Origin: a virus
IMG/VR virus record: IMGVR_UViG_3300035703_000043
Coordinates: 30,591 to 94,590 of that record
Reading direction: 5' to 3' (one strand)
DNA: 64,000 nucleotides
The notes beneath the pieces are model-generated. The model searched no databases, was not told the DNA's origin, and saw only the letters and a program-made list of their open reading frames with translations. This document shows, piece after piece, positions 5,917 through 56,253 of the stretch. Each line of letters opens with the position of its first letter. The first letter of the stretch is position 1. A program made the position numbers and the translations under genes.

Positions 5917-8900
5917 ATGGCGGACAGATTTCCACTAATAGCAAATCCAACAACCAAACAGATTGAGGAGTTAGCACCTGGAGATAATCTTAATCTGCAA
6001 AACAGTGGAATAGTTGGTGCCACTACAATTACTGCGAATAAATTTATTGGAAGTTTAGAAGGAAATGCAACGACTGCGAGCACATTAAATAATGCCGCAA
6101 ACATAACTGCTGGAACGATTAGTTCTTCAAGATTATCTGGAAGTTATAATATAACTGCGTCAAATGCAAACAATCTATCTAATGCTGCAAATATTAGTGC
6201 AGGAACAATCAGCAGTGCAAGATTGTCTGGGTATTATCCAATTTCAGTTGATTCCTCGTTTTCTTCTGATGCTCTTACTGATGCATCAAATATCACAGGT
6301 GGCACAGTTCCGTCTGCAAGATTGTCTGGATTTTACGACATTAATGTAGGAACAGCAAATACTGCAAATATTATTACTCCTGGAAGTTTTCAAAATATTG
6401 ATATTGGGGGAAATGCTGCCACTGCCACTACAGCAGTGAATCTTTCTGGTGGAACAGTTTCTGGTGTTGATTTAAATATTATTGGTATTGGGACAATTGG
6501 TACTTTGGGAGTATCTGGTCTCACAACAACAACCAATTTAACTATAACTAACTTAGCTTCAATTGGATTTGCAAGTGTAGGAATTGCAACAATTGGTTTT
6601 GGGTCATTTACAAATATTAGAGTATCAAGTGCTGCTACGATAGGATTTTTAACAGCAACTAATATTCGTGTTTCTGGCATTGCTACTGTTGGATTTCTAA
6701 CAGCAACTAATTTAAATTCACCCAATGCAACTTTAGGAATTGTTACTGCAACCACAGTCACTGGACTGAATACACTTTCGGCATATGATTCTACTCTTGA
6801 CTTCATCAATAATACAAGAATAAACTCAGGTTTATTGGTTGGAACTGCAGCATCAATTGGAATTGCAACAATAGGATTTGGAACTTTTACTAATGTTAGA
6901 GTATCTGGTATTTTAACAGCAGGTACATTTTCAGGTAATTTTAGTGGGGGAATAGTTGCAACTGCTGCTTCCATTGGAATCGCAACAATTGGTTTTGCAA
7001 ATATTGGTCTTGCATCTGTTGGTATTGCAACAGTAGGATTTGCATCTATTGGCATCGCAACAGTTGGATTATTAACAGCAACTGATGTTCGTGTTTCTGG
7101 TACTGCCACTGTTGGATTTTTGACAGCAACAACACTATATTCCAATAATTACCTTGGAAGTGGAGCAACTTTAGTTGGAATTGTAACACAAATCAATGTT
7201 GGTACTGGTCTTACCTTATCATCAACACAAACTTCCGGGAAGGGAATAGTTCAAGTTGGAATTCGCACATCTATAGGAAAAACAATCTTCGTTTCTTATG
7301 AAGGCAATGATTCAAATACTGGATTGCTGAATAATGATGCAAAGAAAACTATAAAAGCAGCAGCAGCACTTGCTTTGTCTGGTGATACAATTAAAGTTTT
7401 TCCAGGAACTTATGTTGAAAATAATCCAATTGTTTTATCAAAAAATGTTTCTGTTGAGGGAACTGAACTTCGTAACTGTTTAGTTTCACCACAAAATTCT
7501 GGACTTGATTTATTCCACGTTAATGATGGTGTTCATATTACTAATTTAAGTTTTATTGGTGCTCCATCAACAAATGGTGCATCAGTGATAGCACTTCAAC
7601 CTCTTGCTGGAGTTTCTACTCATAGATTCTTTGATGCAGCAAGAATGATTCGTATGAATCTTGACTTTATTGCCGAAGAAACGGTTGGATATCTGACAAG
7701 TACTGATTATAAAAATCCAGCATTCAATTCCGGAATATCTACAATTAAAGAGGGAATTATTTCAACTCTTAAAGCAATTTGTTATGACACTACAAGAGGT
7801 GGAAATTCAAAGTCTGTAGGAGCAGGCAAATCATATTATAACCAAGCAGGAGTACTTCAAAATATAGTTGGAATTAAATCAGAAACAATTGATGCTTTAA
7901 ATTATGCTGTTGGAATTGCAAGATCTTGCGTTAATAATGTTTCTTTTGCAAAAACAAGTGGTGGAAATTATCAATATCATTACACACAAGTAAAAGATGT
8001 TTCCATTCAAGCAGATTCGGCAACTGGTTCTAATACTGATTTGAATTCTTGTTCTAATGTAATTTCTGCATTATATTCTTGTGTTGGGATTGTAACAACG
8101 ATTATTAATAATGGATTAAGTGCTCTTGGTGGTGCTGGAATTAATACGACAACTCCATCATCATATGATGGTCAAGTAAGTAACAATTGGTCCAGCACAA
8201 AACTTGAAGGAACAACGTTCTCACCTGGTGTTGGAATTGTTTCAAAAGGTCCTTATATTCGAAACTGCACAAATTTCATACCAAATAGCATTGGATTAAA
8301 GGTAAATGGTTTTGATGCAGAACCTGGAGATGAAATTGATAATGGTATTCAAGGTTCTATGAGTGTTGATTCATATACTCAATATAATCAAGGAGGAATT
8401 GGAGTTTCAATTACTAATGGTGGATATGCACAATTGGTTTCTATCTTTACAATTTGCGATGATATTGCAATTTATACGTCTTCTGGTGGTCAATGTGATA
8501 TTACTAACTCTAACAATTCATTTGGAACTTATGGATTATATTCAAATGGTGTAGGGGATTATTATAGCAGATCGATTTTCAGATATACTGGTGCTGCAAA
8601 TACAGACGCTACTATAGGTCAAAACACAATTTCTATTTCTGGTTTGGGAACTAATAGACCATATCAAGGGCAAGCAATTTATTTTGGAAACTTATATTAT
8701 TCTGTTGAATCAATAAGTGTTACTGATGGTGGTTCTGGTTATACTTCGGAACCAATTGTTACAATTAGTCCTCCAACTGGTCCAAATGGAATTACTGCCG
8801 AGGCATTTCCTGTAATTGAAAATGGAAAAGTGGTTTCAATCAATCTCATTAGTACTGGAAATCAATATTTAACTACACCAACTGTAACAATTAGTGGTCC

Positions 8901-9699: not shown

Positions 9700-11142
9700 A
9701 TGTATAAGTATATTTCCGGAAGAGCCAAAAAGGAAACAAGAACTGGACTAACATCCGATAGGTATGAATTTTTAGGACTAAATCAAGCAGAGCCAGATCT
9801 TGGAGATCCATTGGTTGGTCCTTCTTCTATTGGTGCAAATCCATCACCACCTTCAGTATCTGGTGATCAATATTTACTTGTTGCTAATAAAAATAATCCT
9901 GGCAAAAGATATTGGGTTGCATCTTCTCAGATATTAACTGGTGGTTTAATTCCTGGGTCTTTCAGTGTTTTTGATGATAACATTCAAGTAGGTGCAGCAA
10001 ATAGTTTCAATGTTTTTAATCTAGTTGGTGATATTGTATCCGTAGATCCAGTTGGTTCTGGTGTTTCAGAACAAACTGGAATTGCAACGATAAGATTTTC
10101 CCTAAAAGCACCTGGCCAATTAAATCAAATAATGTATCACGGTAGTGGTGGTTTAATTAGAGCAGCAAGTGGATTTGTATATTCTTCAGGAAATATTGGA
10201 ATTGGAAGCAATTCACCGACAGAATTGTTAGATGTAGAAGGAAATGGAAAATTTCTTGGATCTGTAAGTGCTTCAAGTTTTGTTGGTGATTTGACAGGAA
10301 CAGCCTCATTTGCATCTGGGTTTAGCACAACGGCAAATATCAATACATCAGGTATCATAACTGCTTCAAGTTTTGTTGGAAACTTAACTGGAACAGCAAC
10401 CACTGCTTCTGGTGTTTCTACAGAAATAAACATTAACACTACAGGAATTATAACTGCTTCAAGTTTTGTAGGTAACTTAACTGGAACAGCAACTACAGCA
10501 ACCATAGCATCCACCGCACTTGGTGTGTCAACATCAATTAGTATAAACACTACTGGTATTATAACTGCTTCAAGTTTTGTAGGTAACTTAATAGGCACAG
10601 CAACTACAGCATCCAATGTAAGTTCCACTATCAACATAAACACTACTGGTATTATAACTGCTTCAAGTTTTGTAGGTAACTTAACAGGCACAGCAACTAC
10701 AGCAACGAATGTAATTAGTGGTATTGCATCTGTTTCTTCATTGAATGTCTCTGGCATAACTACGATTGGAAGTGCAACAACTTCCACAAATACACCATTA
10801 CAAGTTGAAACTTATGGAGTGAAAACAGGAACTGGTAATTTTATTGCTTCAGTTGGAATTACTACATTCATAGATAGTTTTTCCATTACAACTACAGACT
10901 TTAAATTAGTTGAATATTCTGTTCATATTGGATTTAGTAGCAGTATTCAAGTTCAAAAAGTTTTAATTATGCAAGATGGCATTATTGCAAATGCTGAATC
11001 TTATGGCATTATGTATAACAAAAATGCTTTGGTTGCAATTGGAGCAACTTTGGATGGGACTGACTGTAAATTGCAAGTTACACCTCAGTCTGGAGTAAAT
11101 GGAGTGACCACATATAGATTCGTAAGAGGAAGTTTATTATAA
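9700..11142 (+). CDS. tail fibre with repeated ITASSFVGNLTGTATTA units, first-cassette copy
   Basis: 480 aa. The N-terminus (MYKYISGRAKK) resembles that of the giant protein at 28229 (MAKYLSNRQKN), supporting a duplicated cassette. Residues ~150-350 contain about five tandem units built on IN(T)TGIITASSFVGNLTGTAT, a shaft repeat also seen in the next gene. The C-terminal ~110 residues lose the repeat and look globular (FIDSFSITTTDFKLVEYSVHI onward, ending in TTYRFVRGSLL), probably a receptor-facing or trimerising tip. A long fibre component is most likely. No S74 chaperone motif is present. Confidence 0.65.
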   Translation: MYKYISGRAKKETRTGLTSDRYEFLGLNQAEPDLGDPLVGPSSIGANPSPPSVSGDQYLLVANKNNPGKRYWVASSQILTGGLIPGSFSVFDDNIQVGAANSFNVFNLVGDIVSVDPVGSGVSEQTGIATIRFSLKAPGQLNQIMYHGSGGLIRAASGFVYSSGNIGIGSNSPTELLDVEGNGKFLGSVSASSFVGDLTGTASFASGFSTTANINTSGIITASSFVGNLTGTATTASGVSTEININTTGIITASSFVGNLTGTATTATIASTALGVSTSISINTTGIITASSFVGNLIGTATTASNVSSTININTTGIITASSFVGNLTGTATTATNVISGIASVSSLNVSGITTIGSATTSTNTPLQVETYGVKTGTGNFIASVGITTFIDSFSITTTDFKLVEYSVHIGFSSSIQVQKVLIMQDGIIANAESYGIMYNKNALVAIGATLDGTDCKLQVTPQSGVNGVTTYRFVRGSLL

Positions 11143-28228: not shown

Positions 28229-31200
28229 ATGGCAAAGTACCTCAGCAATCGTCAAAAAAACTTTAAGATTGGTATAAGTTCTTATACTGAAAATAAAACA
28301 GTATTGGAGATTACTGGGAATGTTGGTATTGGAACAACAAATGCAACATCTGATTTGTATGTAGTTGGAGATGGATATTTTACTGGTGTTGTAACTGCTT
28401 CTAACTTTTATGTTGGAAATGAATTAGTTGGTGCTGGTGGTTCATTTGCACAACTTTATGTATCTGGTATCGCTACTCTTGGAGCAAATGGTGGTATTAC
28501 TACAACTGGCGGAAACTTATATGTCGGTGGAGATTTACAAGTTTCTGGATCTTCTAATTTTATAGGAACAGCAATTTTTAGAGGTGGAACAATTGGAATT
28601 GGTGACTCTACTTCTGATGACATTAATGTTGGTGGTGAATTTGTATCAAATTTAGTTCCAAAATATGACAATACGTATGATATTGGTTTAGAAAGTAATA
28701 GATGGAGAAACGCAAGATTTTCTGGTTTAACAACAACTGGTAATCTTTATGTATCTGGTGTTGGTACAGTAGCAAATTTATATTCTACCACTGGTATTAT
28801 TAATTATCTCTCTGGTACTGACCTTAATTTTAGTGGTATTAGCACTCTTGGAGTCACATCTGCAACACAATTAACTTCTCAAAGTCTTACTGTTTCGGGA
28901 AATAGTAATTTATCAATTACTGACATAACAGTCAATAGTTCTTCCAATGCATTAACAATTACTCAAACTGGGACTGGAAACGCATTAATTGTTAAAGATG
29001 ATAATTCAGATTCCAGTCCTTTTGTAGTTACTGGTATTGGTTCTGTTGGTGTTGGTGTTGAAAATCCTGCAGAAAAACTTCAAGTTGATGGAAATATAAG
29101 ATTAGGTTCTTCAGACTCAAATTATATTGCATTTAAAGGTACAACTGGAGATTCTCCTAATGGAGGATTTACTCATACCTTTATTGGAGAAAGAATTTAT
29201 ACTCCTGGAACAGAAGAATCCGAACTTCTTATATTTAAAGGAAACGACCACGATTTATCAGTTGAAGGACCAGATAGAATTCGATTAGCAGCAGCAGAAA
29301 TTAGATTTGACACTTATACAATTCCAACTTCAGGTTCTTTTGAAGAAGTTGCTACTTCTGGAAATTTAGATACGAAATTTATAATAAGAGACAACGGTTT
29401 TGTTGGAGTAGGAACAGCAAATCCATCTTCAACACTTGATGTTAGTGGAAATTTGAATGTCAGTGGAATTGGCACCATCAATACATTAGATGCCAATATA
29501 GTTGACATTGAGAATTTAACTGCCACTAATATTAATTCTTCTGGAATTTCTACATTAGGAATCGCATCAATAAATCATCTTTATGTTTCTGGTCTTTCTA
29601 CATTTGTTGGTGTAGGAACATTTAATGATGATTTGTATGTTGGTGGTGATGTTAGAATATCTGGCATTTTAACAGTTGGTGGAAATAGTGTAGTAATAGA
29701 TGGGGAAAATGACCTTATTAAAATTGGTTCTGGAGTTACTTTAGGTTCTTCATCTGGAACTATAGTTTATTTGAGTGGTACTAATTTAAATTATAGTGGC
29801 ATTGGTACGATTGGAACTTTAGATACCAATATTGGTACAATTGATTATCTCTCTGGTACTGATTTAAATTATAATGGTATTGGTACATTTGGTACTTTAG
29901 CAGTAACTGGATTAACAACTACAAAAGATTTACGAGTTGTTGGAATTACAACACTTGGAGTTACAACAGTAACTAATTTAACAGCACAGAATATTAACTC
30001 TTCTGGTATTGTAACTGGTTTTACATTCCGTCCAAGTAGTGGATATTATCAGTCTGCAAATGGAACTAACTCTTTCTATGTTTATGATGGTACAGGGAAT
30101 GTAGCATTCCAAGGAACAATTGGTGCAAGTCAAATCAATAATGCTTCTGGATATAAAGTTATTGGATTTGCTGGAACCAATATTACTTTTGAAAATAATG
30201 CTTATATTGCAGGCATTACAACCTCTGTTGGTGGTTTTATAGGAAATCTGACAGGAACTGCAACAACCGCAACTAAACTTGAGACTGCAAGAGCATTTGA
30301 AATTACTGGAGACATTGTTGCGTCTGCGATTAGTTTTGACGGAACTGGCAATGTATCTTTAGCAGCAACAATTCAACCAAATAGTGTTGCTCTTGGTTCA
30401 GATACAACTGGTGATTATGTTCAGTCAATTACTGGAACTTCAAACCAAATTACTGTTACAGGTGGAACTGGTGAAGGTTCTACACCAACTTTAAGTCTTC
30501 CAAACAATTTAATTCTTCCACAAGATGTTACAGTTACAAGAGACTTACAAGTCAATCGTAACTTAAATGTAACAGGTAATATTACGATTGGCGGTTCAAC
30601 TGCATTTGTGAATGTTCAAGAGTTAGTTGTTACTGACCCAGATATTATTCTTGGTTATAGAACAGATGCATTTGGTAATGATGTTTCAAATGATAATACT
30701 GCTAATCACGGTGGTGTTGCTCTTGCTTCTACAGAAGGAACTCCATTAGTTAATCTTTTTGTTGCTGGTATTGAAACAGCACCTGCCACATATAAGAAAA
30801 TTATGTGGTTCAAGGAAGGCACTTTTGCTGGACTTGGAACTGATGCTTGGTTAATCAATTATGCAGTCGGTATTGGTTCAACACAATTCCCAACTGGAAC
30901 AAGACTTGCTGCTGGTAATGTACAATTTACTGAAAATGATTTAGCAGTTGTTAGAAATATTAATTCTTCTGGTCTTATAACAGCAACCAGATTTATTGGA
31001 ACAGCAACAAATCTTGATATTAATGGTCTTACGACAATTAATGACCCACAAAGTAATGATTTTATAGCACTTTATGATGTGAGTGGAGCAGTTGTAGGAA
31101 AGGCAACTATTCAAAATGCTGCTCTTCAAGGTCTTCAGGGAACTCAAGGCACACAAGGTATACAAGGTACTCAGGGTCTTCAAGGAACTCAAGGTACTCA

Positions 31201-49226: not shown

Positions 49227-50201
49227 ATGAATAATTTTGTTAAACTTGCATTGGAAAGTGGTGGAGTTATAAAACCATTACTTATTGACTCCCAAGATCT
49301 CACTGGACCTTCTCTAAACAATCCATCCGTTTTGATCTTAGGTGATAAAATATTACTTAATATTAGAAACGTAAACTATACTTTATATCATTCAGAATTA
49401 GATCGGTTTGAACATATTTGGGGACCACTAACATATGTTCACCCAGAAGATGATATGCATCTTAGAACCTGGAATTATATTGCAGAGTTAGATGAAGATT
49501 TAAATATAACACACTATTCAAAAATAGACACTTCAAAATTTCCAGATCAAGAACTTTGGGAATTTGTAGGTCTTGAAGATGGTCGTTTGGTAAATTGGGA
49601 AGATAAAATTTATTTGTGTGGTGTTAGAAGAGATACAACACCCAATGGTGTTGGAAGAATGGAATTATGTGAACTTGAATTTGATGAATACACAGTAAAA
49701 GAAATTTCAAGATATAGAATTCCCGGACCACCACCAGATGATGAATATTGTATGAAAAATTGCACTCCAATAGAAGGAAAACCATTTCATTTAATTAAGT
49801 GGACTAATCCAACTTGTATCCTGAAATTTGATTCAAATGGTGGTGAATCTTCAGTTTATGAAACAACTTCTTATATTCCTGGATTTAATGACATGAGAGG
49901 TGGTTCTCAAGTTATTAAATATAAAGATGGTTATTTAACCATTATACACGAAACCGATTTATATAATTCAGTTCAAGGAAGAAAAAATGGGACATATAGA
50001 CATAGATTTGTTTATTGGAACCACGATTTCACTGAGCAAAAATTTTCTAAATTATTTTCATTTTTAAATATGAAGATTGAGTTTTGTTGCGGGTTGGCAA
50101 AATATAAAGATAGTTATTTAATTACTTTTGGTGCATCAGATAATGCTGCATATATCTTAAAAATTTCTGAGTCTTTTTTGGAGGATTTTTTAAATGACTG
50201 A
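49227..50201 (+). CDS. GH130/GH43-like five-bladed propeller protein
   Basis: 324 aa. Recurrent features of the GH130/GH43/GH32-type five-bladed propeller: NNPSVLILGDKILLNIR (first blade strand), FVGLEDGRLVNWEDKIYLCG (residues 113-132, resembling the EDPR acidic motif), RGGSQVIKYKDGYLTIIHE, and CGLAKYKDSYLITFGASDNAAYILKIS near the C-terminus. GH130 members phosphorolyse beta-mannosides. Here the substrate and even activity are uncertain; a glycan-binding role is equally possible. Overlaps the next gene by 8 bp, suggesting joint expression with the fusion enzyme at 50194. Confidence 0.6.
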   Translation: MNNFVKLALESGGVIKPLLIDSQDLTGPSLNNPSVLILGDKILLNIRNVNYTLYHSELDRFEHIWGPLTYVHPEDDMHLRTWNYIAELDEDLNITHYSKIDTSKFPDQELWEFVGLEDGRLVNWEDKIYLCGVRRDTTPNGVGRMELCELEFDEYTVKEISRYRIPGPPPDDEYCMKNCTPIEGKPFHLIKWTNPTCILKFDSNGGESSVYETTSYIPGFNDMRGGSQVIKYKDGYLTIIHETDLYNSVQGRKNGTYRHRFVYWNHDFTEQKFSKLFSFLNMKIEFCCGLAKYKDSYLITFGASDNAAYILKISESFLEDFLND

Positions 50202-52074
50202 ATTGATTGATTTTTGTTTGGATACAGAAAATCCAGAAAAAAATTATAAATTAGCTCAGTGGTATGAAAAACAAAATCATACCGCATCAGCACACGTTTA
50301 TTATTTTAGAACAGCAGAAAGAACTGATGATAAAGATTTTGCATATACTTCACTTCTTCGTTCTTCTATTTGTTATAAAAGTCAAGGAAAACGAGATGCG
50401 ACTGAAAAATTATTAATTCATGCTGCTTTATCTTACTTACCCGAAAGATCAGAAGCATATTACTTACTTTCTTTATTTTATGAGAAAAAAGAAGAATGGG
50501 ATCAATGTTATTTGTATGCAGATTTTGGATTAAAGTGTTATGAAAATGAGATTGAATCAATAGATTTGCCAGAATATCAAGGAAAGTACGCACTTATTTG
50601 CCAAAAAGCAATTGCCTCATGGTGGTGGGGAAGAGGGGAAGAAAGTAAAAAACTTTTTCAGTTACTTAAAGATGAATATTGGAATGTGATGAACAGTGAT
50701 TATAAAAATCTTGTGAATGAAAAGATGAATGCTTTTTTTGGAATTTCTAATAATGTGGAAAGAGAATATACTAAAAAAACAATAAATCTTAATAATTCAA
50801 TTTTGGATGTATATGAAATGAAGGAGAACAAAAGTGAAGAAGTCGTGGAACCAAATACAATAAGAAAAAAAATAGGTTTTGATGTTGGAGCATGTGTTGG
50901 TGAAACAATCTCTAAATTTGATGGGTTTGATAAAATCTATGCATTTGAACCAGCTCCTTATGTATTTAATATTCTTGTTGAAAAACATAAAAATGATCCA
51001 AGAATTGAATTTTATGAGATGGCAATATCTGATGAAAATGGGGTAAAATCTCTAAAGTATCATGACAATTATGGTTATTCTTCATTTTTAGAAATTGATA
51101 AAGAAGGAGAATTTGCAAAAAAATGTCAAGAGATTGATCCGGGGTTTGATAATATCATATCAATAATTGATGTTCAAACGAAAAGGATTGATACTTTTAT
51201 GCAAGAACATTGCATTGAACATATAGATTTTCTCAAAATAGATACACAAGGAAATGATTTAAATGTAATTAAATCTCTTGGTAAAATGATCGATAAAGTT
51301 GATACTATAGAATTGGAAGTTCAGATTAAACCTTTGTATAAAAATTCAAGTTCTAAAGAAGAAATTGTAGATTTTATGCAAAAAAATAATTTTGATCTCA
51401 TATCAAAAGAAGCAAATAATTTTTTACTAAAAGAATATGAAGAACGACTAACTTTTAAGCAAAAAAAAGATAAATCTTGTTTTTCTATTAATGAATATAA
51501 AAAATCAACTTCTTGGATTGTAGATAATTTTTATGATAATCCTGATGAGATTCGTAAATTTGCTTTAGAGCAAGAATTTGGAGATGAAAGTGTAATTACT
51601 GGATTTGTTGGAAGAAGAACATTTAATCAATTTTTATTTCCCGGATTAAAAGAAGCATTTGAATCTGTGATGGGTAAAAAAATCACAAAGTGGGAAGAAC
51701 ACGGAATGAATGGAAGATTCCAAATCTGTTGGTCTGGGGAAAGATTAGTCTATCATTGCGATGAACAAATGTGGGGAGGTATGATTTACCTTACACCAAA
51801 TGCTCCATATCAATGTGGAACTACATTATATGCTGATAAGAAAAATAGAGCAAGAACTTATTATGACCCAGGATGGGATGAATATTGGGCTAATACTCCA
51901 GGAGATTGTCATTTAGACAGAACACCATTTGAACCAGTAGATGTCCTTGGTAATGTTTATAATCGTCTTGTAATCTTTGATGCAAGTTGCATTCATTCTG
52001 CCTCAGAATACTTTGGAACTAATAAAGAAAACGCAAGACTATGGCAAATGTTTTTCTTTGATACGGAGGATTGA
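50194..52074 (+). CDS. TPR-like / FkbM methyltransferase / 2OG-Fe(II) oxygenase fusion
   Basis: 626 aa, apparently three domains. Residues 1-185: helical repeats resembling TPRs (ASAHVYYFRTAERT, AYYLLSLFYEKKEEW). Residues ~226-410: FkbM-type SAM methyltransferase, with FDVGACVGETISKFDGFD (SAM motif I), YAFEPAPYVFNIL and FLKIDTQGNDLNVI motifs. Residues ~430-626: a 2OG oxygenase-like domain with YHCDEQMWGGMIYL (H521, D523), CIHSASEYF (H601) and ENARLWQMFFF (R615). One chain could methylate and hydroxylate the same target; the substrate is unknown. Followed by the GT25 gene with a good RBS. Confidence 0.75.
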   Translation: MTELIDFCLDTENPEKNYKLAQWYEKQNHTASAHVYYFRTAERTDDKDFAYTSLLRSSICYKSQGKRDATEKLLIHAALSYLPERSEAYYLLSLFYEKKEEWDQCYLYADFGLKCYENEIESIDLPEYQGKYALICQKAIASWWWGRGEESKKLFQLLKDEYWNVMNSDYKNLVNEKMNAFFGISNNVEREYTKKTINLNNSILDVYEMKENKSEEVVEPNTIRKKIGFDVGACVGETISKFDGFDKIYAFEPAPYVFNILVEKHKNDPRIEFYEMAISDENGVKSLKYHDNYGYSSFLEIDKEGEFAKKCQEIDPGFDNIISIIDVQTKRIDTFMQEHCIEHIDFLKIDTQGNDLNVIKSLGKMIDKVDTIELEVQIKPLYKNSSSKEEIVDFMQKNNFDLISKEANNFLLKEYEERLTFKQKKDKSCFSINEYKKSTSWIVDNFYDNPDEIRKFALEQEFGDESVITGFVGRRTFNQFLFPGLKEAFESVMGKKITKWEEHGMNGRFQICWSGERLVYHCDEQMWGGMIYLTPNAPYQCGTTLYADKKNRARTYYDPGWDEYWANTPGDCHLDRTPFEPVDVLGNVYNRLVIFDASCIHSASEYFGTNKENARLWQMFFFDTED

Positions 52075-52076
52075 TA

Positions 52077-52844
52077 ATGAACGAAAAATTAATAAATTTT
52101 CCCCCAGTTTATTATGTTTCTTTAAGTGATTCTACCGATAGACAACAATCATTTGAAAATCAATTTCGTTTAAATGGAATTCAAAATGTAAAAATGATTG
52201 AAGCATATGATGGCAGAAAGGAGGATTATAAAAATAAACCCGATATTGTTGATGGTCTTCATTTTGGGTCTATGGATTCTGGTGCAATTGCTGCTACAAT
52301 TTCCCATTTAAAAGCAATTTCAGAGTGGTATTATAATTCAGAATCTGATTATGCAATCTTTTTTGAAGATGATATAACAATTGACTCTGTAAATGATTGG
52401 GATTTTAATTGGAATGACTTTGTAAGTATATTTCCCGAAAATTGGAAAGCAATTCAATTATCTTTGATTAAAGATGATATCACAGAAGATGATATGAAAT
52501 TAAATCAAAGGGTATGGTGGAATTGGTCTGCTGGAAGTTATTTGATTCGGAGGAATTATGCAAAAGAATTGATTGATTATTTTTATCAAAATGACAAATA
52601 TTATTTAAAAATCAAAGGAGATGATAATGCAATTCCTTGCATAGAACATTGTTTATTTTCTTTAGCATGTGAGAACGCATATACAATTCCTTTATTTTAT
52701 GAAAATATAAATTTTGTTTCTACATTTTATCAATATTTTATTCAGAATACCCATAAAGATCATCAAATTGAATCTTCAAATTATGTTCGTTATTGGTGGA
52801 AAATAAAAGGGAAAGAATTATCTTTAAATTATTTGAAGTTATAA
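52077..52844 (+). CDS. GT25-family glycosyltransferase
   Basis: 255 aa from the ATG at 52077; an in-frame TTG at 52071 is less likely because AGGAGGA-like sequence (52063-52070) is well spaced for the ATG. GT25 signature: VYYVSLSDSTDRQQSFENQF, IEAYDGR, GAIAATISHLKAI, SDYAIFFEDDIT (acidic EDD metal site near residues 98-99) and AGSYLIRRNYAKEL. The family includes LPS galactosyltransferases and the collagen beta-galactosyltransferases. A phage enzyme acting on surface glycan or phage protein is likely; no specificity can be read from the sequence. Confidence 0.75.
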   Translation: MNEKLINFPPVYYVSLSDSTDRQQSFENQFRLNGIQNVKMIEAYDGRKEDYKNKPDIVDGLHFGSMDSGAIAATISHLKAISEWYYNSESDYAIFFEDDITIDSVNDWDFNWNDFVSIFPENWKAIQLSLIKDDITEDDMKLNQRVWWNWSAGSYLIRRNYAKELIDYFYQNDKYYLKIKGDDNAIPCIEHCLFSLACENAYTIPLFYENINFVSTFYQYFIQNTHKDHQIESSNYVRYWWKIKGKELSLNYLKL

Positions 52845-52900
52845 TTTATCTTCAAACCCAACAGAGTGATTTTAGTTAAATTTTTACATCTTGTCAACAC

Positions 52901-52929
52901 TTGACACTTAAAAGTTGTTAATGTATGAT
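52901..52929 (+). promoter_or_regulatory. perfect-spaced sigma70 early promoter
   Basis: TTGACA 52901-52906, exactly 17 bp, TATGAT 52924-52929. Transcription should start near 52935-52937, right at the base of the first hairpin of the structured RNA below. Same layout as the promoter at 17555. Confidence 0.85.
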
Positions 52930-52935
52930 GAAAAG

Positions 52936-53031
52936 GTCTTCGCAACTTTGTAGCTTTGAGTTGCAAGACTCGTCCTGTGGTGGGGACGGTTTAACTGGTG
53001 GAACAACGGGGGTCTCTGACCCCTTTTTTTT
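52936..53031 (+). ncRNA. structured small RNA or leader RNA with three hairpins
   Basis: Begins at the predicted start of the promoter at 52901 and ends in the T-run of the terminator. Hairpin I: 52936-52940 with 52965-52969 and 52942-52947 with 52959-52964 (11 bp, one bulged C, 11-nt loop). Hairpin II: CGTCC 52971-52975 with GGACG 52984-52988. Hairpin III: GGGGTC 53009-53014 with GACCCC 53018-53023, then eight T. All three are perfect or nearly so in an AT-rich genome, which argues against chance. It may be a free ~96-nt regulatory RNA, or an attenuator or leader for the VWA gene that starts 35 nt later. No known RNA family was recognised by eye. Confidence 0.7.
53009..53031 (+). terminator. 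strong intrinsic terminator upstream of the VWA gene
   Basis: GGGGTC-TCT-GACCCC (6-bp GC-rich stem, 3-nt loop) followed immediately by TTTTTTTT. It would stop the transcript from the promoter at 52901 before the VWA gene unless read-through is allowed. Confidence 0.85.
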
Positions 53032-53065
53032 CTGCTATGATGAATGGAGTTCAAAAGCAAACCAG

Positions 53066-55255
53066 ATGTCGGTAAATCTAGAAGTTAAAGGAATGCTGGC
53101 TAAATGCCTTGCGATGGAAAATATTATCATTGAGCATAAAAAAGTTCCAACTGCTATGTTTGATGTTGAACGTAGGGTATTGACTTTGCCGACTTGGGAC
53201 AAAGCAAGTGATACGGTATATACACTTTTGGTTGCCCACGAAGTGGGCCATAGTTTGCATACCGATAATATTGACTGGACAAAAGATTACCCAGAAGTTC
53301 CTAAAGACTTTGTAAATGTTCTGGAAGATGTTCGTGTTGAACGTCTGATGAAGAAAAAGTATCCTGGTCTTTCTCGGACTTTCTACAATGGTTATAATGA
53401 ACTCAACAACGATGATTTCTTCTCCACCAAAGATGAGAAACTGGATGATTTGAGTTTTATTGACCGAATCAATCTCTACTTCAAGATTGGTGCATTTCAC
53501 AACATTGCTTTCAATGATGAGGAGAATGAATTTCTGACTCGTGCTTCTCTTACTGAAACTTTTGATGAAGTACTGCAACTTTCAAGAGAAATTGTTGAGT
53601 TTGTGAAATACAAACGTCAAAAAATCAGCAATATGCCCACTCCTGGTGGTGGTGAAGAAATGTCTGGTCCTGGTGGAGAAGAAGTAGAAACTCCTCAACA
53701 AACGTCGTCATCTGAAGATGGTGATAGTTCTAATGGAAAGAACAAAACTGAACTGGAGCAAGACTCACAGGGACAATCTCAATCTGAAGGTGAATCTTTC
53801 GGTGAAGAAATGTCTAAGTCTATTGAAGCACCAGAGGGTGGTGGATATGGTCAAGACCCAAGTGATAAGCACGGAAAAACTCTTGAAGATGAACTAAAAT
53901 CCAAAACTTCTCGTTCTTTTGATGAAAAGTCTAAAGATTTGGTGGATAAGTATGCTCAAGAAACTCATTATGTGGAACTTCCCAAAATGAATCTTGAGAC
54001 AATGATTATTCCCAATAATTATATTCATTATAAAGCAAAAGAGCATTATGCAAGTGTTGGTTCTTGGGTTCGTGATGCTTATGATATTGCTTGTAAGGAA
54101 TATAATACCTACAAGAAATCAGCAGAGAAAGAAGTTTCTTATCTGGTAAAGGAGTTTGAGTGCAAGAAATCTGCCGATCAGTATGCTCGTTCTAGTGTTG
54201 CTAGAACTGGTGTTCTTGATACGCAGAAACTTCATACTTACAAGTTTAACGAAGACTTGTTTAAGAAAGTTTCTGTAGTCCCTGATGGCAAGAATCACGG
54301 TCTTATTTTCATTCTTGACTGGTCTGGTTCAATGGGTGAATTCATTCTGGATGCATACAAGCAACTTCTAAATCTCATTTGGTTCTGCCGTAAGGTGAAT
54401 ATTCCTTTTGAGGTTTATGCTTTTACTCTTGATTGTCATTCTTATGCGGAACTGCAACCAAATCATCCTCCTGTCTATGAAAGGGTTGAGAATGTTCTAT
54501 CACCTGAGAATTCTTTCCGTTTGATGAACTTCTTCACCAGCAAAACAAATACTCGTGTTCTTGAAGAACAACTGAAAAATATTTGGGTTGCTTGTTACTT
54601 CTTTCAAAAGCAAATGGGTTCTGTTCCTCGTCATCTTGACCTTTCTGGTTCTCCTATTGGGGAATCTTTGATGGCACTACACTCTTTGATTCCTGATTTC
54701 CAGGCAAAAAATAAACTACAGAAGGTCAATGTCATCTTTCTGACTGATGGTGAGGGGTATCAGAATTCTGTGACAACTGAAAGAAAACTTGGAGATGGTA
54801 CAACCAGAATTGGTCATACCAAACACTCTCGGACTTCAATTCGTGATCGTAAGACTGGTAGAATCTATCAACCTTTGAATTACGATAACTTCCCTTTGTA
54901 TGCTAAAGTTCTTCTTCAAACAGTCAAAGATAAATTCCCTATGGTGAATGTGATTAACTTCCGTATCACTCCCAGTCGTGATTTTTCAAACTGTTATCGT
55001 TGGTATGGTGGTGGTCAGTCTTCGGAATACGAAAAAATCAAAACTGAATATCGTAAGGAAGGTTGTGTTCAATTCAAGAACACTGGGTTTGACCAATTCA
55101 ATGTAATTGCCTCTACTTCTTTGTCTCAAGATGAAGAGTTCTCTGTTCCTGAAGATGCTTCCAAAGCACAAATCAAAACAGCATTTGTGAAGATGTTGGG
55201 TAAGAAAAAGACCAACAAAAAACTCTTGAGTTCTTTTATTGGTCTTGTTGCCTGA
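53066..55255 (+). CDS. CobT-like VWA protein with HEXXH metallopeptidase motif
   Basis: About 729 aa from the ATG at 53066. An in-frame ATG at 52925 would run through the RNA and terminator and is rejected. N-terminal part: ERRVLTLPTWD and VAHEVGHSLH, an HEXXH zinc motif, followed after ~30 residues by NVLEDVRVERLMKKKYPG, the third-ligand type EDxRxE of CobT-like proteins. Middle: Ser/Gly/Glu-rich disordered linker (~200-290). C-terminal VWA domain with the MIDAS motif DWSGSMGEF and FLTDGEG. CobT is the VWA partner of AAA+ CobS ATPases; the CobS-like gene lies 1 kb downstream. Known in T4-like cyanophages, often annotated peptidase. The target of the pair in the phage is unknown. Confidence 0.8.
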   Translation: MSVNLEVKGMLAKCLAMENIIIEHKKVPTAMFDVERRVLTLPTWDKASDTVYTLLVAHEVGHSLHTDNIDWTKDYPEVPKDFVNVLEDVRVERLMKKKYPGLSRTFYNGYNELNNDDFFSTKDEKLDDLSFIDRINLYFKIGAFHNIAFNDEENEFLTRASLTETFDEVLQLSREIVEFVKYKRQKISNMPTPGGGEEMSGPGGEEVETPQQTSSSEDGDSSNGKNKTELEQDSQGQSQSEGESFGEEMSKSIEAPEGGGYGQDPSDKHGKTLEDELKSKTSRSFDEKSKDLVDKYAQETHYVELPKMNLETMIIPNNYIHYKAKEHYASVGSWVRDAYDIACKEYNTYKKSAEKEVSYLVKEFECKKSADQYARSSVARTGVLDTQKLHTYKFNEDLFKKVSVVPDGKNHGLIFILDWSGSMGEFILDAYKQLLNLIWFCRKVNIPFEVYAFTLDCHSYAELQPNHPPVYERVENVLSPENSFRLMNFFTSKTNTRVLEEQLKNIWVACYFFQKQMGSVPRHLDLSGSPIGESLMALHSLIPDFQAKNKLQKVNVIFLTDGEGYQNSVTTERKLGDGTTRIGHTKHSRTSIRDRKTGRIYQPLNYDNFPLYAKVLLQTVKDKFPMVNVINFRITPSRDFSNCYRWYGGGQSSEYEKIKTEYRKEGCVQFKNTGFDQFNVIASTSLSQDEEFSVPEDASKAQIKTAFVKMLGKKKTNKKLLSSFIGLVA

Positions 55256-55261
55256 CCACCT

Positions 55262-55287
55262 GGGGGAGTATTTATTACTCCCCTTTT
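55262..55287 (+). terminator. intrinsic terminator after the VWA gene
   Basis: GGGGAGTA (55263-55270) pairs with TACTCCCC (55276-55283) around a 5-nt loop, followed by TTTT. The T-run overlaps the TATAAATA late element, so the end of the early VWA transcript and the start of a late transcript are joined. Confidence 0.85.
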
Positions 55288-55294
55288 ATAAATA
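55287..55294 (+). promoter_or_regulatory. T4-type late promoter TATAAATA
   Basis: Perfect TATAAATA 20 bp upstream of the ATG of the capsid-targeted gene at 55315, starting in the T-run of the preceding terminator. Confidence 0.75.
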
Positions 55295-55314
55295 CCTAAA
55301 AAGTATCAGTAGAA

Positions 55315-55758
55315 ATGAAAACTTTTAGGGAGTTTATATTGGAGTGTGAGTTGGTTGAGGGTAAAGTAGAGTGGGATAATCCAAAAAGACCACTACAATC
55401 TGGACTAACTCCAAGAGAAAAGAATAGAGCAAAGAGGATTTCTACTAATGTTGAAAATCCAAATAGAGTTTCATTTGGTGGAAAATCTTGGGATCTAAGT
55501 GATAAAGATTATGAGAGATATGGAAAACTAAAAACCGCACACGACGAACAAAAAGATAAAAAAGTTCCAAAAGATAAAATACATCAGTTTAAACAGACAC
55601 GAAATGCCGAAGGAAATCGTGCTGGGACAAGGGGGCAATATAAGAGAAGATGGAAAGACCAAAAAAATCTTCCAAATAACTCAAAACTTTGGAAGCAAGA
55701 TGAAAGACAAAAAGTTTATCATCATAATGATTTGAAAGAACCAAAAGAACGAAAATAA
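55315..55758 (+). CDS. probable head-packaged protein with capsid-targeting N-terminus
   Basis: 147 aa starting MKTFREFILECELVEGK. The first ten residues match the T4 capsid-targeting sequence MKTYQEFIAE in spacing, including the cleavable (I/L)xE (here ILE at 8-10, LVE at 13-15), so the mature protein would begin after one of these. The mature part is very basic (Lys/Arg-rich, KRRWKDQK) and is paralogous to the partial protein at 63424: both contain GKVEWDNPKRPLQSGLTPRE and EYERYGKLKxAHD. Likely an internal head protein, perhaps DNA-associated. Read from a perfect late promoter. Confidence 0.7.
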   Translation: MKTFREFILECELVEGKVEWDNPKRPLQSGLTPREKNRAKRISTNVENPNRVSFGGKSWDLSDKDYERYGKLKTAHDEQKDKKVPKDKIHQFKQTRNAEGNRAGTRGQYKRRWKDQKNLPNNSKLWKQDERQKVYHHNDLKEPKERK

Positions 55759-55762
55759 AGTG

Positions 55763-55795
55763 CAGACGTTATCATATAAATAATGATAACGTCTG
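55763..55795 (+). terminator. 13-bp perfect hairpin with a late promoter in its loop
   Basis: CAGACGTTATCAT (55763-55775) pairs with ATGATAACGTCTG (55783-55795) without mismatch, 7-nt loop ATAAATA, then TTTTA. It serves as a terminator of the preceding gene. TATAAATA at 55775-55782 (last stem base plus loop) is a perfect late -10 element. Confidence 0.8.
55775..55782 (+). promoter_or_regulatory. T4-type late promoter TATAAATA within hairpin loop
   Basis: Lies 24 bp upstream of the preferred HNH start at 55807. On double-stranded DNA it is a normal promoter; on the RNA of the upstream gene it becomes the hairpin loop. Confidence 0.6.
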
Positions 55796-55806
55796 TTTTA
55801 ATCTTT

Positions 55807-56253
55807 ATGGAAAAAGAAGAAAAGAATCGTAAAGAAAGAGAAAGATATAATGCTAAAATAAAGGATGATGTATTCAAAGAGAATAAAAGAAAAAGAGATT
55901 TAGAATACTATCATAAGACAAAAGAAATAAGAGTTGCCAAACAAATTGAAAGAAGAAAAGAACTTTTAAACGAAGCAAAATTATCTTTAGGTGGAAAATG
56001 TATTTGGTGTGGAGCAACTGAAAACCTTGAATTTGACCATATTGATGATTCAAAGAAAGAGAATAATGTGGGAAATGCTGTAAGAAATACAAGAGAAGTT
56101 TTTTGGAATGAAGTTAGTAAGTGTCAATTATTATGTGTAAGTTGTCATAATAAAAGGACTACCGCACAAAAAAGAGCAAAACAAAAACTATGGTTATCAT
56201 TGCCACTTGAAGAACGAGAAAGATTATTGTCGGATGAACTCAAGGACAACTGA
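55807..56253 (+). CDS. HNH endonuclease (possible homing endonuclease)
   Basis: 148 aa from the ATG at 55807 (MEKEEKNRKE); the in-frame ATG at 55783 lies within the terminator hairpin and is less likely. N-terminal half is a long basic helix (RKERERYNAK, KRKRDLEYYH). The C-terminal half is a Cys4 HNH domain: GKCIWCGATENLEFDHIDDS, then LLCVSCHNKRTT, with the zinc cysteines and the DH/H-N-H catalytic residues visible. Such free-standing HNH genes in T4-like phages are often mobile and sit next to conserved genes; here next to the CobS gene. Target unknown. Confidence 0.8.
   Translation: MEKEEKNRKERERYNAKIKDDVFKENKRKRDLEYYHKTKEIRVAKQIERRKELLNEAKLSLGGKCIWCGATENLEFDHIDDSKKENNVGNAVRNTREVFWNEVSKCQLLCVSCHNKRTTAQKRAKQKLWLSLPLEERERLLSDELKDN

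Follow-up and report, generated by a model that had tools for sequence, protein, structure and literature searches.

A stretch of viral DNA of 64,000 nucleotides (nt) (positions 30,591 to 94,590 of the IMG/VR record IMGVR_UViG_3300035703_000043; hereafter the window) carries a promoter, three hairpins and a terminator in close succession upstream of a VWA/peptidase gene. The locus raises the question of whether it is a gene for a small RNA (sRNA) in its own right or a leader or attenuator that controls the VWA gene, and the initial annotation of the window had left both readings side by side. Our comparison of the locus with its relatives upholds the former and speaks against the latter: covariation, near-invariant loops and a kept promoter and terminator make it very probable that the sRNA locus is a real stand-alone RNA gene, whereas the genomic context and a separate promoter of the VWA gene argue against a leader.

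Predicted transcription unit

The sRNA is preceded by a sigma-70-type promoter, TTGACA-N17-TATGAT (52901–52929, + strand), which matches 11 of the 12 consensus positions. The region 50000–56000 holds 32 promoter-like sites, whereas its shuffled versions contain 25 ± 4.8 that match at 9/12 or better, and the sRNA promoter is one of only two sites in the region that reach 11/12. Hairpin 1 begins 6 nt past the –10 box, which is the expected transcription start. The predicted RNA of ~96 nt (52935–53031, + strand), whose ends are derived from the positions of promoter and terminator, is delineated by the family models R1/R2, by folds and by covariation, and comprises three hairpins and a U-tail. 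Hairpin 1 (52935–52970), defined by single-sequence folds and compensatory changes, displays the apical motif CUUUGUAGCUUUGAG (52946–52960), and hairpin 2 (52971–52988), defined by its fold and compensated pairs, displays the loop UGGUGG (52978–52983). The aligned copies further mark a linker motif, GGUGGAACA (52997–53005), and the unit closes with the intrinsic terminator GGGGGUC-UCU-GACCCCU followed by T8 (53008–53031), of which the hairpin occupies 53008–53024 and the eight T occupy 53024–53031. The promoter, the three hairpins and the placement of the first of them at the predicted start thus all stand as initially annotated. The 96-nt stretch folds with –35.4 kcal/mol, as compared with –25.7 ± 3.2 kcal/mol for shuffled sequences (z = –3.06; 1 of 200 shuffles equals it).

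The same arrangement is kept in the relatives. In all 47 copies scored, the TTGACA box is perfect and the promoter matches the consensus at 10 or more of the 12 positions, with a spacing of 17 in nearly all. Every complete copy closes with a GC stem and a run of T. Each phage record that has the sRNA holds one strong copy.

Covariation and near-invariant loops

A comparison of homologues, which had been proposed as a check, revealed compensatory base changes in the fold. In an alignment made without reference to structure, 86.3% of the cells are paired, as compared with 79.7% in shuffles, and 89 cells are changed on both sides, as compared with 35. In an alignment of 50 distinct copies fitted to the model, and for that reason biased towards its structure, 91.9% of the cells are paired (81.8% in shuffles) with 134 both-side changes (41 in shuffles), 17 of the 24 pairs are compensated, and none of 500 shuffles reaches the real value on any measure. 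Pairing drops to 43–65% in slid controls. Hairpin 2 is the clearest stem, in which all six modelled pairs show both-side changes and 99.3% of the cells are paired. In addition, most copies give the same hairpins as the window sRNA when folded singly.

Unlike the stems, the loops CUUUGUANCUUUGAG and UGGUGG vary hardly at all among copies. Across the family, the apical motif reads CUUUG[UC][AG]NCUUUGAG with almost no variation, and in two copies (L001 and L005) it begins with CUUCG. A GUGGU-type motif is present twice in most copies, once in the loop of hairpin 2 and once in the linker or the terminator loop; clades other than that of the window have a linker with GGUGGUAUAA or a terminator loop with GUGGUG. 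As the stems vary while keeping their pairing and the loops hardly vary, it is the loops rather than the stems that are probably the recognized part of the sRNA.

Distribution of the sRNA family

Among 80 viral loci taken from IMG/VR by means of the VWA protein, ~20 distinct upstream regions contain the same sRNA, and others have different upstream sequence, often the 3' ends of endonuclease-like genes. The two-loop pattern CTTTGTNNCTTTGAG-N4-30-TGGTGG, run against IMG/VR, matched 68 stretches, which gave 45 distinct copies (window counted) after removal of duplicates and of four chance hits (L089, L101, L122 and L142), dropped because they have neither the promoter nor the structure. The covariance model R1 recovered further diverged copies, a second loop variant, CTTTGC, recovered more, and a blastn search found an unannotated copy in the isolated phage S-SRM01, which infects Synechococcus KCZYC6 (positions 10974–11078 of MW015081). 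Alignment A2 holds 50 distinct sequences, and four more bring the family to at least 54.

At the sensitivity of these searches, no convincing copy was found in 17 marine or marine-host isolates (S-PM2, P-SSM2, P-SSM4, S-SM2, S-CAM1, S-CAM7, Bellamy, S-SSM7, S-RSM4, P-TIM40, ACG-2014f, S-ShM2, S-H38, Syn10, P-HM1, S-SKS1 and Sf-FS3), nor in DSL-LC02, DSL-LC03, S-CRM01 and S-CBWM1. When 84,980 species genomes of bacteria and archaea were scanned with the pattern, 51 hits resulted, roughly as many as chance would give, and none was cyanobacterial; when these were scored with the model, the best reached 19.7 bits and none exceeded 20 bits. Given these scans, the sRNA looks like a phage RNA that belongs to one broad cyanophage lineage. 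S-SRM01, the only isolate with the sRNA, came from a freshwater reservoir, and we infer a freshwater habitat for the other (IMG/VR) carriers, including the virus of the window, presumably one of lake cyanobacteria. Because S-SRM01 is in culture, the sRNA is open to RNA sequencing, Northern blotting and the swapping of loops.

Comparison with known RNAs

The initial annotation recognized no known RNA family, and Rfam 15 bears this out. At the gathering score, no model matches the sRNA in the window, including wcaG, manA, PhotoRC-II, glnA, abiF and Cyano-1; a scan of the sRNA stretch up to E = 10 returned chance-like matches only; and a scan of seven relatives up to E = 0.1 placed no credible family on the sRNA. 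No paper found in our literature search describes it. The sRNA is thus a new RNA family, of a kind, the phage small RNA, that is already known.

Few non-coding RNAs of cyanophages are known so far, and most of them are cis-regulatory. The wcaG, manA, PhotoRC-II and glnA RNAs are described as cis-regulatory elements of genes (PMC2864571, PMC9964418); like them, the sRNA is a structured RNA of T4-like cyanophages detected by comparison, but it has its own terminator, stands before varied downstream genes and does not match their models. In cyanophage S-CREM1, a small RNA gene, abiF (RF03085), has likewise been annotated, as reported in PMC9964418, but its Rfam model does not match the sRNA. CfrI of cyanophage S-PM2 is an antisense RNA of ~225 nt directed against psbA (PMC12197685). 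Both CfrI and the sRNA are non-coding RNAs of T4-like cyanophages located in a gap that adjoins an endonuclease gene in some relatives, whereas the sRNA is only ~96 nt long and overlaps no gene on the opposite strand, where there are short mechanical open reading frames (ORFs) only. No complement of 9 nt or more to the sRNA loop occurs elsewhere in the window, and a cis-antisense RNA of the CfrI type was rejected on both of these grounds. The sRNA is common, single-copy, equipped with its own promoter and supported by covariation, with a defined, mutable and near-invariant loop.

Proposed mode of action

The best explanation overall, and in our judgement a likely one, is that a stand-alone sRNA gene acts in trans through its loops and is unrelated to the VWA gene; action in trans, taken by itself, is slightly the more secure. 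In the proposed mechanism, the RNA polymerase of the host, carrying its primary sigma factor, would start at ~52935 early in infection, make an RNA of ~96 nt and stop at the T8 terminator. The RNA would then work in trans, most likely through loop pairing with a conserved host or phage RNA and less likely through protein binding, although we give base pairing rather than protein binding no better than an even chance. The host, or else other genes, would probably be affected by the sRNA early in infection. More tentatively, it might be a host-takeover RNA, made at once by the host polymerase, whose near-invariant loop serves as a mimic or a blocker of some highly conserved RNA or RNA-binding protein of the host, and which arises from a bidirectional early promoter together with a second conserved transcript.

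Several observations weigh against a trans-acting sRNA of this fold. Apart from the bias of the model-fitted alignment, the middle part of hairpin 1 has only 68% of its cells paired in that alignment, and some clade B copies prefer a different hairpin 1 when folded singly. Moreover, duplexes of the loops with the start regions of genes in the window are no better than those of shuffled loops, as 49%, 46% and 6% of the shuffles are as good.

The closest competitor concerns the partner of the loops. The sRNA could be a decoy whose loops bind and titrate a conserved RNA-binding protein or processing enzyme, of the host or of the phage, instead of pairing with an RNA target. The apical motif, almost invariant across otherwise widely diverged phages, is displayed in a fixed hairpin loop and contains a CUUUG repeat with a spacing of 8. 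Motifs of the GUGGU type are found repeatedly, in the linker and in the loops of hairpin 2 and of the terminator. All of this would suit a protein ligand. However, near-invariance is also expected from pairing with a very conserved RNA, and we regard a decoy as possible but doubtful.

Genes downstream of the sRNA

A cis-acting leader, attenuator or riboswitch of the VWA gene would start at 52935 and allow conditional read-through into that gene. Its attraction lies in the position of the sRNA, whose terminator stands immediately 5' of the VWA gene: in 34 of the 47 copies (window counted), a same-strand VWA gene begins a few tens of nt downstream. In the window, this gene (53066–55255, + strand; start MSVNLEVKG; PHROG phrog_459, E = 1.6e-249) lies outside the sRNA unit. 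The gene downstream of the sRNA nevertheless varies, being VWA, glutaredoxin, an HNH endonuclease or others. A glutaredoxin gene follows the sRNA in another group (L082, L092, L093, L096, L107, L109, L225, L242 and S-SRM01), HNH-type endonuclease genes separate the sRNA terminator from the VWA promoter in four loci (L001, L012, L033 and L047), and an additional promoter element lies between the sRNA and the VWA gene in two (L106 and L113).

Furthermore, the downstream genes have their own promoters, of the extended –10 or the late TATAAAT type. The VWA promoter (TGnTATGAT or TGnTATCCT) is conserved at the same position between terminator and VWA start among relatives, whether they carry the sRNA or not, and in the window it is an extended –10 element, TGCTATGAT (53033–53041, + strand). 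In the glutaredoxin group, a late-type TATAAAT promoter follows the sRNA terminator. Antiterminator pairing, judged by eye, was not seen as conserved among the aligned copies. On account of the varied downstream genes and their own promoters we rejected the VWA leader or attenuator, which we consider improbable, and we infer that the sRNA, INDEPENDENCE from the VWA gene, is unrelated to it in function.

In L106 and L113 downstream of the sRNA, and in L045, L049, L050 and L054 upstream of VWA, a promoter is followed by ACTCTGT(T)RGGKTT... and then by a CACTTTGGGAACTG-like sequence; this stretch may represent another non-coding RNA within that gap.

The locus as a site of gene exchange

Upstream of VWA, the gap is a hot spot for insertions, as the HNH-type genes of L001, L012, L033 and L047 illustrate. 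Such a setting is reminiscent of the promoter early stem loops (PeSL) that are described as mediating shuffling in T4-type phages (cited in PMC4503421). The locus could be a mobile PeSL-like promoter and stem-loop cassette, or a tandem terminator, serving insulation or gene shuffling with an RNA that is itself functionless. It is a site of frequent gene exchange, the sRNA occurs at several genomic places, three loci (L013, L021 and L071) retain only the terminator and promoter, and, as in PeSL, an early promoter is joined with a stem-loop at a site of gene exchange. However, a terminator or recombination site needs neither a near-invariant 15-nt apical loop nor 17 compensated pairs. In contrast to PeSL as described, the sRNA has three hairpins, nearly invariant loops and the order promoter, RNA, terminator. 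A PeSL cassette proper, for which several similar copies per genome in shuffling regions would be expected, was rejected, as one strong sRNA copy per record was found. A functionless cassette is in our view even less probable than a leader.

Start of the VWA protein

An in-frame ORF does run from 52925 through the sRNA into VWA in the window, and the initial annotation had warned that it could lead to a wrong N-terminus of the VWA protein. A protein-coding N-terminal extension merits next to no credence: although the frame is also open in three of the other 32 phages, it is interrupted by stops in 29 of the 33 (this frame alone was scored), its spacer lengths change between phages, and the phrog_459 profile aligns with the long ORF from residue 50 onwards. 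The phage records listed match from residues 1–6 on. Conserved protein coding through the sRNA is thereby excluded, and the open frame, on this comparison of frames, is a matter of chance. These stops place the start of the VWA protein at 53066, in agreement with the profile match. The warning was well placed, and the analysis of the sRNA corrects the start of the VWA gene.

A divergent promoter and neighbouring elements

A second promoter, TTGACA-N17-TAAAAT (52869–52897, – strand), stands back to back with that of the sRNA and shares with it a –35 palindrome, TGTCAA-CAC-TTGACA. The palindrome, in the general form (T)GTCAA-N0-5-TTGACA, is found in 35 of the 47 copies and the divergent –10 box in 28, which reveals a conserved bidirectional early promoter within the gene-exchange hot spot. 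The predicted start of the divergent transcript, ATCACTCTGTTGGGTTTGAAGATAA (52846–52870, – strand), is present in 36 of the 47 sRNA loci; its absence from the other 11 indicates that the sRNA is independent of the divergent element. The element ATCACTCTGTTRGGKTTGAAGATAA, the predicted first stretch of this transcript, would head antisense into the variable upstream gene. It occurs in more than 100 viral stretches, often beside endonuclease genes, with zero to three occurrences per record among the records searched, and in other contigs it forms the leader of GIY-YIG-like endonuclease genes (named by eye).

In 16 of the 47 copies, the promoter spacer and the 5' arm of the sRNA form a perfect inverted repeat of 10–12 bp (L018, L029, L037, L048, L053, L088, L090, L091, L106, L124, L126, L131, L133, L136, L138 and L147). 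It exists in four co-changing versions, for example ACCCTCAAGAC/GTCTTGAGGGT and AACCTCAAGA/TCTTGAGGTT, and was not used as evidence because the window does not have it.

Two further elements lie apart from the sRNA. S-SRM01 (L200) contains at 6954–7005 a weak match to the glutamine riboswitch, at 28.9 bits and under the gathering score of 35. In the window, a perfect inverted repeat, GCAGACGTTATCA-TATAAATAA-TGATAACGTCTGT (55762–55796), has a loop that contains TATAAATA, a late promoter of the T4 type, and lies just ahead of an HNH gene, whose start codon is probably at 55807; this arrangement is similar to the control by hairpins of homing endonucleases in phages, I-TevI among them.
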